Assembly (NCBI RefSeq): GCF_029392675.1
Contig: NZ_CP113941.1
Coordinates: 112,001 to 176,000, forward strand
Length of the DNA: 64,000 nt
Origin: Lactobacillus sp. ESL0684
GTDB lineage: Bacteria > Bacillota > Bacilli > Lactobacillales > Lactobacillaceae
Direction of reading: 5' to 3'
The notes under the pieces were generated by a model. It did no database searches, had not been told where the DNA came from, and worked only from the letters and a program-made list of their open reading frames with translations. A program made the translations under genes and the position numbers. Numbering within the stretch: the first letter of the stretch is position 1; every line of letters starts with the position of its first letter. Below, one piece after another: positions 10,703 to 15,012 of this stretch.

Positions 10703-11506
10703 TTAAGCTAGCAAGATGGCATCGTCTTTTAGTTCTGTGCCAACGTGTTTTTGGAATAATTCCATGAGCTTTGGGACTGTCATTTGCTTCTTTTCTTCAT
10801 CAGCAAGGTCTAAGGCTACACGTCCCTGATGGAGCATAATAAGCCGATTGCCATAGCGAATGGCATCTTCCATATTGTGGGTTACCATGAAGGCGGTTAG
10901 TTTTTGCTCAGCGATCAATTTCTCGGTTAAATTCATTACTGTGATCGAAGTTTGCGGATCTAATGCGGCAGTGTGTTCATCCAGTAAAATTAAATCGGGA
11001 CGCCTGAGTGTTGCCATTAAGAGAGTGATAGCTTGACGCTGGCCGCCAGATAGCAAGCCGATTTCGGTATCTAACCGATTTTCTAAGTTTAAGTCAAGCT
11101 GGGCTAATTGTTCTTTGAAAAAGCTGCGATCTGCTTTTTTAACGCCAGCACGGAAAGTTCGCCGTTGACCGCGTTTCATTGCTAAAGCAAGATTTTCTTC
11201 GACAGTTAGCCGCACAGCAGTCCCCATCTTAGGGTCTTGAAAAACGCGACTAATTCGTTTTGAACGTTTAGTTACTGACTGTTTACTAATATCTTGGTCA
11301 TTGAGAATAATTTTTCCTTGTTGAATTGGCAAAGTACCAGCAATACTGTTGAGCAAAGTTGATTTGCCGGCACCATTACTACCAATAATGGTAACAAAAT
11401 CACCGGCTGCTAGCTCTAAATTGACACCGCGCAAGACGCGATTTTCATTAACGGTTCCTTGTTCAAAAGTTTGATGTAAGTTCTTAATTTTCAATACTTG
11501 AGACAT
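10703..11506 (-). CDS. ABC importer ATP-binding protein, TrpX-associated family
   Basis: Cytoplasmic ATPase of 267 residues that powers the importer encoded with it. It has the Walker A GSNGAGKST (about 38-46), the Q-loop, the signature LLSGGQRQA, Walker B LILLDEHTAALDP and a switch histidine in MVTHNM. Glu before His in Walker B (DEHTAALD instead of DEPT) is usual for this subfamily. It overlaps the permease gene by 23 bases. Together with the following two genes it forms an importer of the kind called trpXYZ in streptococci. Confidence 0.9.
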   Translation of the reverse strand: MSQVLKIKNLHQTFEQGTVNENRVLRGVNLELAAGDFVTIIGSNGAGKSTLLNSIAGTLPIQQGKIILNDQDISKQSVTKRSKRISRVFQDPKMGTAVRLTVEENLALAMKRGQRRTFRAGVKKADRSFFKEQLAQLDLNLENRLDTEIGLLSGGQRQAITLLMATLRRPDLILLDEHTAALDPQTSITVMNLTEKLIAEQKLTAFMVTHNMEDAIRYGNRLIMLHQGRVALDLADEEKKQMTVPKLMELFQKHVGTELKDDAILLA

Positions 11507-12398
11507 TGTTCTTTTCCCCTTTGTTTTTATTTGATAAATGAAAATTAGGTAATGCCAAGCAGATGATTAAGACTAGAGCAGAAGCTAATTTAGCATCAGA
11601 AGGTTCAACATTCATTTGGAAGACAAGTGCCAAGATTAGCCGGTAAATAATGGCGCCGATTACTAACGTAACTAAGCGCATGCCAATTGGCAAATGCCGC
11701 AGTAAAACTTCGGCGATAATAATGGAAGCTAAGCCAATAACTAGGGTTCCAACACCAGAGTTCAAGTCTGCGAAACCATTATTTTGGGCCAATAGTGCAC
11801 CAGAAAGGGCAATGCTACCGTTAGAAATCATATAACCCCAGATTTTCATACTTTGAGTGTTAATCCCATTAGCAGCACTCATCTCAGGGTTGTCACCTGT
11901 TGACCGCATGGCCAAGCCGATTTCTGTTCTAAAGAAGCCAACTAGTAAAATAATTGCTAGTAAGGCAACGATTAGTCCCATAACGATCACGGCATTGTTG
12001 TGAGATAACCCCCAATCTTGGGCAATTGAAAAGAGGGTTCTTTTGCCTAATAAAGAAACGTTGGCTGCATTTTTCATTACTCGAGAAGTGATGGAATATA
12101 ATCCCGTCATGGTTACAATCCCGGCTAATAGAGAAGGGATTTTTAATTTAGTATTTAACACTCCAGTTACTAGTCCTGCTAGCATGCCGCCGCCAAAGGC
12201 AGCAATAGTTGCTAGAACTGGATTGACTCCGCTAATCAGGCACATTGTGGTAATTGCTCCGCCTAACGGAAAACTTCCTTCGGCTGTCATGTCAGCTAAA
12301 TCTAATATTCGAAAAGTTAAATAGACGCCAATCGCCATTAGTGACCACAACAGTCCTTGTGAAGTCGATGATAGCAATAAATCTGTAAAAGTACTCAT
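11484..12398 (-). CDS. ABC importer permease, TrpX-associated family
   Basis: Membrane subunit of 304 residues with eight or nine predicted spans, of the LivH/BPD_transp_2 type (IYLTFRILDLADMTAEGSFPLGGA near the N-terminus is characteristic of the branch paired with TrpX binding proteins). ATG 12398 follows GAAAGG. The gene starts 27 bases after the binding protein gene and overlaps the ATPase gene, so the three subunits are made from one message. Confidence 0.88.
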   Translation of the reverse strand: MSTFTDLLLSSTSQGLLWSLMAIGVYLTFRILDLADMTAEGSFPLGGAITTMCLISGVNPVLATIAAFGGGMLAGLVTGVLNTKLKIPSLLAGIVTMTGLYSITSRVMKNAANVSLLGKRTLFSIAQDWGLSHNNAVIVMGLIVALLAIILLVGFFRTEIGLAMRSTGDNPEMSAANGINTQSMKIWGYMISNGSIALSGALLAQNNGFADLNSGVGTLVIGLASIIIAEVLLRHLPIGMRLVTLVIGAIIYRLILALVFQMNVEPSDAKLASALVLIICLALPNFHLSNKNKGEKNNVSSIEN

Positions 12399-12425
12399 AG
12401 TAATTCTGTTTTCTGCCTTTCTAGC

Positions 12426-13391
12426 TTACTTAGGTGCTTTAATCGATTTTGGATCAATCTTTAAAGCTTTAGCCATGTCCTTATTAACTACTAATTTTAA
12501 ATTATCGGCTTTTTCGACTGGCATGTCTTTAGGTTTGGCTTTGCCGGATAAAATTTTAGCGGCCATTTTACCAGTTTGTTTACCTAAAGCTTTGTAATCA
12601 ATCCCAATAGTGGCTAAACCACCAGTTTTAACTTGATCAGCTGAACCAGCAACTAATGGAATTTTGTGCTTCTTGACTACTTTACCAACTAGGGATGATG
12701 CGGAAGCAAAGGTGTTATCTGTAGGAATGTAGATTCCTTGTACCTTTCCAGCTAACGTTTCAGTTACTTGTTGCACGTCATTAGTAGTATTGGCGGTTTT
12801 AACTAAAACTTTTACCCCGGATTTCTTCAGTGCTTTAATTGCCAAATCAGCTTGGATCTTTGAATTGGATTCACCAGCATTGTACATAATGCCAATGGTT
12901 TTAGCTTTTGGCACAATTGATAGCAATAGTTTAATTTGATTATCAATTGAAACCATATCGGTTGTTCCTGTAACATTGCCGCCTGGCTTAGTATTCGATT
13001 TTACTAATTTAGCAGCTTTTAAGTCGGTAACGGCAGTGACCACGATAGGAATATCTTGAGTTGTATTAGCTAAACTTTGTGCTGCTGGCGTCCCAATTCC
13101 TAATACCAGATCAGACTTATCATTGATTAGTTTGTCACTCATACTTTTCAAATTATCTTGGTTATTTTGCGCATTTTGATAATCAATTTTCAGATTCTTA
13201 CCTTCGACATAACCGCCAGCTTTTAGGCCTGCCTTAAAGCCTTTGTATGCTTGGTCAAGCGATGGGTGCTGCACAACTTGCAAAACGCCCACGTGCTTAA
13301 CTTCAGCTTTTTTGTCTGACTTATTACTGCAGCCACCTAATAATAGTAATCCAGCTAGGCTAAGTCCCAGTAACATCTTCTTAATCTTCAT
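12426..13391 (-). CDS. ABC importer substrate-binding lipoprotein, TrpX type
   Basis: Binding protein of 321 residues with a lipoprotein signal (about 1-21, lipobox LLGGC) so it is anchored outside the membrane. The mature part has the ABC_sub_bind fold: HVGVLQVVQHPSLDQAYKGF at the N-terminus, GIGTPAAQSLANTTQDIPIV, and GIYIPTDNTFAS. Members with known ligands bind tryptophan or other aromatic amino acids; that ligand is an inference here, supported by the Tyr/Phe-rich leader peptide upstream. ATG 13391 follows GGAGG. It is the first gene of a three-gene operon. Confidence 0.88.
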   Translation of the reverse strand: MKIKKMLLGLSLAGLLLLGGCSNKSDKKAEVKHVGVLQVVQHPSLDQAYKGFKAGLKAGGYVEGKNLKIDYQNAQNNQDNLKSMSDKLINDKSDLVLGIGTPAAQSLANTTQDIPIVVTAVTDLKAAKLVKSNTKPGGNVTGTTDMVSIDNQIKLLLSIVPKAKTIGIMYNAGESNSKIQADLAIKALKKSGVKVLVKTANTTNDVQQVTETLAGKVQGIYIPTDNTFASASSLVGKVVKKHKIPLVAGSADQVKTGGLATIGIDYKALGKQTGKMAAKILSGKAKPKDMPVEKADNLKLVVNKDMAKALKIDPKSIKAPK

Positions 13392-13419
13392 TATTATTGT
13401 TCCTCCATAAAAAATTGTA

Positions 13420-13590
13420 ATAAAAAATACCCACTTATTTCTAAGCAGGTATCACAAAGTCATTTTTTAAAATTCATTGTTGTGCTTAGCCACTTAGAAT
13501 TATGTGACTAACCGCAAACAAATCGCTCTAGCCATCATAGATAAATTCAAACTTACGTTTCGCTTGAACTCATCTAGATGAATCCAAACG
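13420..13590 (-). promoter_or_regulatory. Transcription attenuator of the TrpX-type ABC operon
   Basis: Reading the minus strand after the leader-peptide stop there are: a long stem AGATGAGTTCAAGC/GTTTGAATTTATCT (13562-13575 with 13539-13552, several G-U pairs); a hairpin TTAGTCAC/GTGGCTAA (13504-13511 with 13486-13493); and a terminator ATACCTGCTTA/TAAGTGGGTAT (13442-13452 with 13427-13437) followed by six T. The segment CTAAGCA (13483-13489) can pair either in the second hairpin or with TGCTTAG (13441-13447) of the terminator, giving the mutually exclusive forms of a ribosome-controlled attenuator. No T-box motif is visible. Confidence 0.7.
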
Positions 13591-13656
13591 CTATCTAAAA
13601 TAGCTAAAGTAATAACGAGTATTCAATTGTAATTGATGACATTCAGTTCTAGCCAT
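13591..13656 (-). CDS. Aromatic-rich leader peptide, 21 residues
   Basis: A short reading frame with an excellent ribosome site (GGAGG at 13665-13669, eight bases before ATG 13656) begins MARTECHQLQ and ends with the run RYYFSYFR: three Tyr and two Phe within six codons. Its position just before alternative hairpins and a terminator fits a leader peptide whose translation senses charged Tyr or Phe tRNA and controls entry into the downstream importer operon. It is too short for usual gene callers. Confidence 0.7.
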   Translation of the reverse strand: MARTECHQLQLNTRYYFSYFR

Positions 13657-13685
13657 GAGAATTACCTCCAACACTTGATGAGAGA

Positions 13686-13714
13686 ATTATAAATTATTAA
13701 AAAAGTAAAGTCAA
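13686..13714 (-). promoter_or_regulatory. Promoter of the leader and TrpX-type ABC operon
   Basis: On the minus strand TTGACT (13709-13714) and TATAAT (13686-13691) are exactly 17 bases apart, a near-consensus vegetative promoter. Transcription would begin near 13680, a few bases before the leader ribosome site, giving an RNA leader of about 290 bases before the binding-protein gene. Confidence 0.8.
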
Positions 13715-13779
13715 TAGCTAAAATTATTAGGTAGTCTTGTATTGTGATTTTAATATCTTTCGTCAAAAGAAATTTTAAA

Positions 13780-15012
13780 TTACTGTTTTTGTTTAGCCGA
13801 ATGCATGACGGCTAAGGTAACTATGAAAACACCAATACTAACAGCAATTATGCCATATAATGCGTAATTAACTCTAGTTGTTCCCGCGATACTGGTAAAG
13901 ATAGTGGTCATTAATGGCCCAGCAATCAATAAAATAGTATTGAGCATCCCCACAGAAGAAGCCAGAATATCGTGATCAACCGAGGTAATCAACCATTGTG
14001 ATAATTTGGGACTGCCCACTCCAGCAAAGAATCCTAACAGGCTACCAAAGACTAGACAGGCAAGCATATTTTTGGTAAGTAAAGCTATTACCATAGCAAT
14101 ACTAGCAAGGGTGTCTAGCAAAGAAATAATAAATAATGAGGTTTGCTTAAAAATTTTGGTACCAATTGCACTACCTAAAGCCATCCCGATTGAATCAAGT
14201 GCCCCAAATAATGCAATTGTGAAACTATAAGTACCAACTAGCATGCTTTTATTACCAGCAACTAGAATTGAAAGTAATGGCTCGATCGTACTGAGAATAC
14301 CGTTAAGCAAGGCGAATACTAAGACGATAGTTAGTAAGCCATGAGCTGTTTTTACTTGGTGATAGGATGATTTTAAGGTTGCCCAAAAGGACTGTTGATT
14401 AACATTAGTGTTGATTGGCTGCTGCTTCTGGTAGTTACGGCCAACATTGAGATAAAGTAATCCTGAAATTAAAAAGGTGACAGCATTAACAATTGCCAGG
14501 TTGGTATACGACATGAAAAGCAATAGTCCGGAACCGATAAACTGTGCTAGCATCGTAATAACTTGATTAATTCCGTTAGTAAAGCCTTCAGCTTCAGCTA
14601 AATCGTTTTGTCCAACTAGATCGACGATTAACGGAGTTGATAATCCGCCAGAATAGGTACCTGCTAAATCAGAGATGAAATTAAGTCCGATAACTAGTAA
14701 AACCAAATTCCAACCCGCTAAGTTGCTAGCAAAGAGCAGACCAACAACTAGGTAAAGCGCGCAGCGGATTAAGGCTAGGGTAACAATCACATGATATTTG
14801 TTTTTGGTGCGATCAGCAAAATAGCCGCCAATACTGGATAATAAATTAGGAATAGCTTCCATAATTGCAATTAGCGATAGTGCTAATGAATAGTTTTTTA
14901 ATTTGCTAGCATAGGTCATGAGGGCCAAGTAGAATAGAATATTACCAGCACCAGACAGCCAACTAGCAACTGAAAGTTTACGATAATTTTTGTTTCTTAA
15001 AAAAATGTCCAT
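13780..15012 (-). CDS. MFS transporter, macrolide-efflux-like
   Basis: Membrane carrier of 410 residues with about twelve spans. The N-terminal region (LRNKNYRKLSVASWLSGAGN) and the motif GGYFADRTKNKYHVI between spans 2 and 3 are characteristic of the macrolide-efflux (MefA-like) branch of MFS. ATG 15012 follows AAGGAGA. It is divergent from an Rgg-type regulator 101 bases away, which is the likely controller of this exporter. Exported compound unknown. Confidence 0.85.
   Translation of the reverse strand: MDIFLRNKNYRKLSVASWLSGAGNILFYLALMTYASKLKNYSLALSLIAIMEAIPNLLSSIGGYFADRTKNKYHVIVTLALIRCALYLVVGLLFASNLAGWNLVLLVIGLNFISDLAGTYSGGLSTPLIVDLVGQNDLAEAEGFTNGINQVITMLAQFIGSGLLLFMSYTNLAIVNAVTFLISGLLYLNVGRNYQKQQPINTNVNQQSFWATLKSSYHQVKTAHGLLTIVLVFALLNGILSTIEPLLSILVAGNKSMLVGTYSFTIALFGALDSIGMALGSAIGTKIFKQTSLFIISLLDTLASIAMVIALLTKNMLACLVFGSLLGFFAGVGSPKLSQWLITSVDHDILASSVGMLNTILLIAGPLMTTIFTSIAGTTRVNYALYGIIAVSIGVFIVTLAVMHSAKQKQ

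Follow-up and report, generated by a model that had tools for sequence, protein, structure and literature searches.

The leader upstream of an ABC transporter operon on the minus strand of the window (the whole 64,000-nucleotide stretch of DNA that was analysed) is very probably a ribosome-mediated transcription attenuator that responds to tyrosine and phenylalanine; no starvation experiment and no expression data stand behind this assignment. Our computations demonstrated a leader reading frame, its conservation, the co-adaptation of six pairings, the placement of the control codons, and a link both to Tyr/Phe genes and to the pocket type of the transporter. The class of mechanism is known; the family, its decoy relay, the codon swaps and two reclassifications appear to be new in the literature searched. 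No description of this attenuator was recognised there, with coverage of subscription journals being incomplete; Panina et al. 2003 (FEMS Microbiol Lett 222:211), which reportedly deals with aromatic regulation in low-GC Gram-positive bacteria, might describe part of it.

Layout of the leader and the predicted switch

The original prediction placed a promoter, a ribosome site, a short leader frame, hairpins and a terminator in front of the operon, and all of them were re-found on the minus strand at the positions it gave. The features of the locus are as follows.

13686-13714, minus strand: sigma-70-type promoter TTGACT-17-TATAAT, 11 of 12 consensus bases
13591-13656, minus strand: leader peptide ORF, MARTECHQLQLNTRYYFSYFR and stop, 21 codons (ATG at 13656, TAG at 13593-13591)
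13591-13608, minus strand: segment 1, the 3' end of the leader ORF; partner of segment 2 if no ribosome is on it
13577-13589, minus strand: segment A, directly 3' of the stop codon; partner of B
13562-13574, minus strand: segment B; partner of A or C
13536-13552, minus strand: segment C, overlapping segment 2 and a near-copy of A; partner of B when a ribosome at the stop codon covers A
13529-13544, minus strand: segment 2; partner of 1 (OFF) or 3 (ON)
13500-13513, minus strand: segment 3; partner of 2 (ON) or 4 (OFF)
13483-13497, minus strand: segment 4; partner of 3 (OFF) or of terminator arm 5 (ON)
13441-13453, minus strand: segment 5, the 5' arm of the terminator
13426-13439, minus strand: segment 6, the 3' arm of the terminator, followed by six T
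13397-13607, minus strand: match to Rfam RF02863 (sRNA_2410)
12426-13391, minus strand: ABC substrate-binding protein, pocket Ser250/Tyr266, Phe/Tyr type and not Trp type
11484-12398, minus strand: ABC permease (BPD_transp_2)
10703-11506, minus strand: ABC ATPase

The promoter runs on the minus strand from the first base of TTGACT at 13714 to the last base of TATAAT at 13686, with a spacer of 17 nt; the scanned stretch contains four promoter-like sites, 2.4 being expected. A GGAGG ribosome site precedes the ATG at 13656, and judged from the sequence a translatable ORF is present between promoter and structural gene, its actual translation being inferred. The control codons of MARTECHQLQLNTRYYFSYFR are Tyr15, Tyr16, Phe17, Tyr19 and Phe20. 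The terminator, a 12-bp stem (13453-13426) with six T, is the only one detected in 13380-13800, and shuffled versions of this region contain a mean of 0.0 (sd 0.2). RNA folding of the minus-strand leader, which the original prediction had proposed as a check, gave a structure stable beyond shuffled controls (277 nt, z = -5.06; 0 of 200 shuffles equally good).

From 5' to 3' the elements are 1, which ends the ORF, then A and B, then C and 2, which overlap, and then 3, 4, 5 and 6. The leader RNA offers alternative partners: B may pair with A or C, 3 with 2 or 4, and 5 with 4 or 6. We propose that a translating ribosome reads the charging of tRNA-Tyr and tRNA-Phe through these alternatives. First, with no ribosome on the leader, 1:2, A:B and 3:4 would form, terminator 5:6 would form as well, and the operon would be OFF. 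Second, a ribosome that finishes the leader and parks at the stop codon would cover 1 and A, leaving B to take C; B:C would hinder 2:3, as C overlaps 2, and the terminator could form (OFF). Third, a ribosome stalled at the Tyr/Phe codons would cover 1 and leave A free, A:B would form first and 2:3 afterwards; 2:3 would release 4 for pairing with arm 5, and the polymerase would read into the transporter genes (ON). Stalling, the order of folding, the OFF outcome at the stop codon, and the import of Tyr and/or Phe are inferred. The switch drawn in the original prediction was correct in being an attenuator, but the relay is longer than described and includes a decoy near the stop codon, made by the duplicated A/C. 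The predicted alternative pairing to the 5' arm of the terminator exists, but the register that relatives support is CUAAGUGG with CUGCUUAG, not CUAAGCA.

The RF02863 match (63.6 bits, cut-off 61) is the only Rfam match above gathering score in the 64-kb window. A second copy elsewhere in the same genome scores 52.1 bits, below the cut-off; its leader is MIMIINKCHQLQLNTYYSYYR and stop, and it lies upstream of an orphan binding protein. A match to the Rfam Na+ riboswitch aptamer (locus L140, 2927-2986) adjoins this second attenuator copy.

Conservation of the leader frame and of the alternative pairings

Of 395 genomes from Lactobacillales, the order to which the window belongs, 214 have a match to RF02863 (above the cut-off in 98 genomes); none of 14 control genomes has one. 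Eighty loci were read, picked for spread among the places listed, and all 80 have an in-frame leader ending in aromatic-Ser/Gly-aromatic-aromatic-Arg (YFSYFR-type). This count carries a caveat, as the search targeted that pattern and the RNA model spans the last leader codons; for this reason the reading frame served as the independent test. A frame with a Shine-Dalgarno site and ATG opening into the conserved core was found for the leader frame in 71/80 loci and for each other frame in 0/80. The N-terminal half of the leader varies, Tyr and Phe interchange, and the stop is TAG, TAA or TGA; in seven loci the leader extends three codons beyond Arg (FRSCL, FRRCL, FRYGL and similar). Numbered relative to the codon that follows Arg, codon -6 encodes Tyr in 73 loci and Phe in 7, codon -3 Tyr in 70 and Phe in 10, and codon -7 Phe in 38 and Tyr in 31. 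The Ser near the end is AGC in 79/80, and the pairing of segment 1 itself limits codon choice at the leader end. The comparison of leaders suggested in the original prediction thus found frame and stems conserved together, which supports attenuation by a translated leader as far as sequence evidence can; stems without the frame, the first of its refuting cases, were not met.

A second feature of the peptide is the motif [QKE]LN upstream of the control codons, present in 56 of the 80 Tyr/Phe leaders (13621-13629, minus strand, in the window); in 44 of these 56 it lies eight codons upstream of the point where the Arg codon ends. A Gln/Lys-Leu-Asn motif also precedes Trp in 20 of 62 Trp leaders. 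The Leu of [QKE]LN is encoded by CTG (34), TTG (13), TTA (5) or CTA (4); as these codons vary synonymously, the peptide itself seems to be selected.

A model built from the Tyr/Phe leaders (R1) matched 65 of 201 genomes of the window's family. In a draw of 398 genomes from the class it matched 35, of which five lie outside the order. Wide searches of this kind, including those with RF04312 (below), lose some weak matches to stricter filters.

RF02863 was defined on sRNA_2410 of E. faecium Aus0004, a 195-nt RNA found by RNA-seq, seen as two transcripts on Northern blots and listed among small RNAs tested under daptomycin (PMC5593968). These data speak for the annotation as a trans-acting small RNA; the two transcripts are, by inference, compatible with a terminated leader plus a longer product, and the terms 'leader peptide' and 'attenuat' are absent from the main text of that article. 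The element follows a leader ORF in 80/80 loci, and a binding-protein or aromatic-pathway gene comes next in 78/80. Since both position and reading frame are conserved in cis, a main role in trans was rejected and we regard it as highly improbable.

The attenuator's alternative pairings were examined by partner swapping, in which own and swapped partners were compared over non-redundant loci (n = 64, or 61 for 4:5; 300 shuffles). Own partners were better than all 300 shuffles for each of the six predicted pairings, with z = -5.6 for 1:2, -16.5 for A:B, -7.3 for B:C, -3.1 for 2:3, -7.2 for 3:4 and -10.3 for 4:5. The unpredicted pairs A:C, 1:3, 2:5 and B:3 paired no better with their own than with swapped partners in the same test. 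When partners were exchanged only inside a family, a gene class or the two combined, no more than 3 of 1000 shuffles were as good for any of the six, and the unpredicted pairs under such confined swaps again had no own-partner advantage.

Covariation was read from 65 rows. The OFF helices are 93.9% paired, with changes on both sides in 20 of 36 pairs (0/500 shuffles). B:C is 95.4% paired; a slid control matches its both-side counts, yet is only 55% paired. For 2:3, which is 95.3% paired, both-side changes occur in two pairs, equalled by 100 of 500 shuffles (three in the slid control, which is far less paired), and amount to five cells, reached in 0/500 shuffles. Column counts thus back B:C and 2:3 less strongly than the OFF helices. 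Segment 4 tends to differ between transporter leaders (CUAAGUGG) and aro leaders (CUAUAGUGG), and segment 5 co-varies with it. As far as alignments can tell, the mutually exclusive terminator and antiterminator pairings are both conserved, the covariation of 2:3 is the weakest among the pairings, and the fold of the window is ambiguous.

Folding was repeated with a ribosome placed on the leader, the RNA being covered to 13 nt from the first A-site base. In the 39 of 80 loci where a strict script located the terminator, 2:3 had a mean of 1.1 pairs in the absence of a ribosome. The mean was 6.5-9.2 when the A site lay at codons -8 to -3 (peak of 9.2 at -5 and -4) and 2.3 when it lay at the codon following Arg; the region -8 to -3, in which masking mainly raises 2:3, holds the Tyr/Phe codons. 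In the same loci a broad measure of 4:5 gave 4.1 with no ribosome, 8.7 for -5 and 6.2 for the stop. RNA ending after segment 4 gave a profile of the same shape once A:B was held (n = 65). With segments 3 and 4 shuffled as a control, downstream pairing was 4.9 versus 2.9 at equilibrium and 8.4 versus 7.0 with A:B held. As the shuffled control pairs as much or more, folding alone does not prove 2:3 specific, and partner swapping was used for this reason; the masked folds are model results that tell when segment 2 is freed, not which partner it takes.

The window itself behaves less simply. In its RNA and in two relatives of its family, 2:3 reaches at most 0.7 pairs at equilibrium with the ribosome at codons -8 to -3; in the window RNA with a stalled ribosome B:C dominates, and the ON state is not obtained. 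With A:B held as already formed, the same RNA gives 9.8 pairs in 2:3 and 9.4 in 4:5. Holding A:B is plausible, though inferred, because A and B are made before C; in these models only a kinetic argument yields ON for the window. Its full-length fold always retained the terminator. Among four examples folded (the window, L112, L092 and L099), ON wins at equilibrium in L112 and L092, and L099 resembles the window. A ribosome placed at the stop leaves B:C fully formed in each of the four. The 3:4 and 4:5 pairings then stand at 6.9 vs 4.6 in L112 and 6.6 vs 4.5 in L092, with 3:4 alone in L099; in the window 4:5 exceeds 3:4 at one truncation (8.2 vs 1.3) and ties with it at another (4.8 vs 4.9). 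Since the stop-codon folds of the window favour 4:5 or tie, OFF at the stop is the least certain part of the scheme.

The ambiguity at the stop could also permit read-through in a different kind of sensor, in which the aromatic nascent peptide ending in Arg-stop binds free ligand in the tunnel and arrests the ribosome there, as in leaders of the TnaC/SpeFL type. The strongly conserved aromatic peptide end and the apparent selection on [QKE]LN would suit such a sensor. However, the stop codon is not fixed and seven leaders continue past Arg; mean 2:3 is high when the ribosome is on the Tyr/Phe codons but low when it is at the stop; the antiterminator of the Trp-reading relatives (below) is lowest at the stop; and Tyr-only, Phe-only and Trp leader versions exist. 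A stop-codon arrest peptide was rejected, as stop codon and peptide end vary, and we consider this sensor unlikely.

Genes and transporters behind the leaders

In 51 of the 80 loci the first downstream gene encodes a homologue of the window's (TrpX-type) binding protein, and in 27 it is an aromatic-biosynthesis gene (aroE in 20, DAHP synthase in four, aroC, pheA and tyrA in one each). In the remaining two, L056 has another gene (by eye an amino-acid ABC protein), and one contig ends first. For aroE, DAHP synthase, aroB, aroC, pheA and tyrA, a single reference of each was identified by Pfam and the rest by BLAST against these references. Wider R1 matches precede genes for a transketolase, an aminotransferase, a D-2-hydroxyacid dehydrogenase and an MFS-chorismate mutase fusion (Pfam, one of each). 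The genes behind these leaders are a Tyr/Phe regulon.

Several loci deserve separate mention. MFS transporters lie behind leaders of the Tyr/Phe type at L212, L216 and L217; that of L212 is fused to a chorismate mutase type II domain, an odd combination of transporter and enzyme. At L200, outside the order, a transketolase gene follows a leader that combines Tyr and Phe codons with a single Trp codon (RYYYFGWFS), which might tie the supply of erythrose-4-phosphate to the regulon. Tandem operons with one Tyr-rich and one Phe-only leader occur in the window's family (L205-L208, L189 and L191), and are natural material for tests of codon specificity.

The substrate of the window's importer was approached through its binding protein. 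Its best solved relative is CD0873 of C. difficile (267.5 bits), followed by SP1069 of S. pneumoniae (202.9) and VC_1101 (197.2), which bind Tyr, Trp and Phe, respectively (PMC6816091). According to the same source, Gln-284 of SP1069 lets Trp in, whereas a Tyr in its place keeps Trp out. In the window protein the Gln-284 site is Tyr266, so that the Trp-admitting Gln is lacking, and the second pocket site is Ser250; in comparison with CD0873, Tyr266 is the same as at the 279 site, and Ser250 stands instead of Glu at the 263 site. It scores 337.1 bits against the TrpX equivalog NF041285, below the 390-bit cut-off. As leader codons and pocket type agree, the importer probably takes Tyr/Phe rather than Trp, by sequence comparison only and without a choice between Tyr and Phe. 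The original prediction had inferred the same substrate from the leader codons, and it is supported by Tyr266 and by the presence of the same leader class before the 27 aromatic-biosynthesis genes.

The window's binding protein (locus 10703-13656) clusters with proteins of Enterococcaceae type and not with most of its own family. Twelve same-genus genomes, among those listed, have no RF02863 match. Horizontal acquisition of the window locus is likely.

The match between codons and pocket extends over the family. In a comparison of 145 labelled binding-protein rows (L361 excluded, one Trp locus counted twice), the specificity site of the 88 proteins with Tyr/Phe leaders is Tyr in 82, Phe in six and Gln in none, and in all 55 rows with Trp leaders it is Gln, as it is in a single T-box protein and in a single protein with no leader found. 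Six Gln-type paralogues were inspected, of which five have Trp codons in their own leader and one has a T-box. Both kinds occur in the window's genome, where two Tyr/Phe leaders go with Tyr or Phe and a paralogue with leader MINSFNLLNASWQGQHD goes with Gln. In the tree, the proteins with Tyr/Phe leaders are all on one side of a single branch (support 100, quick method); therefore the codon-pocket match represents one old split, not many independent events.

Residue 250 was considered as a rule separating Tyr from Phe. In the tandem pairs of L205, L206 and L208 the residue is Ala or Val behind the Phe-only leader and Asp or Thr behind the Tyr leader; L209 has Ala behind its Phe-only and Ser behind its Tyr-only leader. 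Other loci do not fit: Ser occurs with Phe-only leaders in 12 AFSFFFR loci and two more, and Ala with Tyr-rich leaders in L045 and L183. No rule is claimed.

Any ribosome stalled over codons -8 to -3 should turn the switch on, and a general sensor of slow translation or stress, not specific for Tyr/Phe, could be imagined; with daptomycin sRNA_2410 counts went up 2.3-fold by RNA-seq and 4.1-fold by qPCR, mostly uniform according to the text of the paper (PMC5593968). Such a sensor does not account for the genes of aromatic transport or synthesis downstream in 78/80 loci, nor for codon class tracking the pocket, and seems to us very unlikely. An antibiotic-sensing leader was also considered and rejected, no resistance gene being the next gene in the loci read.

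Tryptophan relatives and comparison with known systems

Weak R1 matches led to leaders ending in WQNWRR or WQTWRR before binding proteins with 41-45% identity. These stretches correspond to Rfam RF04312, the trpB motif, ranked as a strong riboswitch candidate (SRC-39-1) by Narunsky et al. 2024 (PMC11109978), who remark that a classic attenuator cannot be excluded. The sample read comprised 73 loci, weak ones included (33 from order and phylum searches and 40 hand-chosen). A Trp-codon ORF with a ribosome site lies directly upstream in 62 of them, one being doubtful, and was not found in 11 (L305, L306, L307, L344, L361, L362, L368, L371, L372, L373 and L376), of which L362 is a Tyr/Phe leader.

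In the RF04312 consensus, B:C makes up the first hairpin. In the swapping test (n = 60), own partners prevailed in A:B, in B:C and in the pairing of C to the terminator arm (0/500 shuffles), and not in three control pairs. With a ribosome placed on the leader, the antiterminator has 9.5-9.8 pairs when the A site lies between the first Trp codon and two codons further on. It has 8.5 pairs one codon earlier, 5.2-6.1 over codons -8 to -2, and 5.2 with the ribosome at the stop (n = 60; this profile has no shuffled control). RF04312 matches occur in 114 of 198 genomes of the window's order, and in the phylum draw in 4 of 398; a single one of these four exceeds the cut-off, and the remaining three lack a Trp leader.

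A metabolite riboswitch, as proposed for RF04312, has that ranking in its favour, and faces the Trp-codon ORF upstream of most loci read and the reservation of its own authors. Its counterpart, a divergent T-box, is opposed by the lack of an RF00230 match above cut-off at the window locus, in a genome with 20 T-box matches elsewhere (six over the cut-off); T-box identity was rejected on this absence. Neither can be given more than marginal credence.

The attenuators of the two families may share one history. We lean, with some reservation, towards an ancestral scaffold reprogrammed by codon swaps (Tyr+Phe, Tyr-only, Phe-only, Trp) in step with transporter duplication and pocket change, which would have given lactic acid bacteria a codon-readable alternative to the T-box; the trpB candidate and sRNA_2410 would be its members, and the specificity of dozens of TrpX-like transporters would be readable from the leader. 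Two labels, small RNA and strong riboswitch candidate without ligand, would be replaced by one testable mechanism, with a specificity rule for a large transporter family and natural codon swaps that ease testing. The original prediction had held peptide-leader attenuation to be less common in Firmicutes; this does not fit the present order, where it looks common. The matches (RF02863 in 214/395 and RF04312 in 114/198 genomes) point to wide use of ribosome-mediated attenuation in an order for which T-boxes are the usual topic.

RF02863 is among the nearest known elements: the window scores above gathering and has the same element from the last leader codons on. It differs in that Rfam and the source paper describe a small RNA, whereas here it is read as a cis attenuator of Tyr/Phe genes; the model omits most of the upstream leader ORF. 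RF04312 resembles the Tyr/Phe leaders in its leader ORF, A, B, C, an antiterminator part overlapping C, and the terminator, and three of its loci were recovered with the model made from Tyr/Phe leaders; as read from the sequences, it differs in having Trp codons, a Gln transporter pocket and one relay hairpin fewer.

In the enterobacterial hisL six-segment relay, trpL and pheL, as in the scheme proposed here, a ribosome that stalls at codons for the amino acid made by the operon redirects a series of alternative hairpins. These attenuators belong to other organisms and have other sequences; here Tyr and Phe codons are mixed, and the decoy is made by the duplicated A/C. T-box leaders govern homologous transporters by the charging state of tRNA, as in streptococcal trpXYZ under a Trp T-box (PMC9382623), but the window has no T-box match, and its sensor would be the translating ribosome. 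Finally, in bacilli a leader peptide also replaces a T-box before hisZ/hisS in Firmicutes (PMC2965389), the amino acid there being His and the genes being different.
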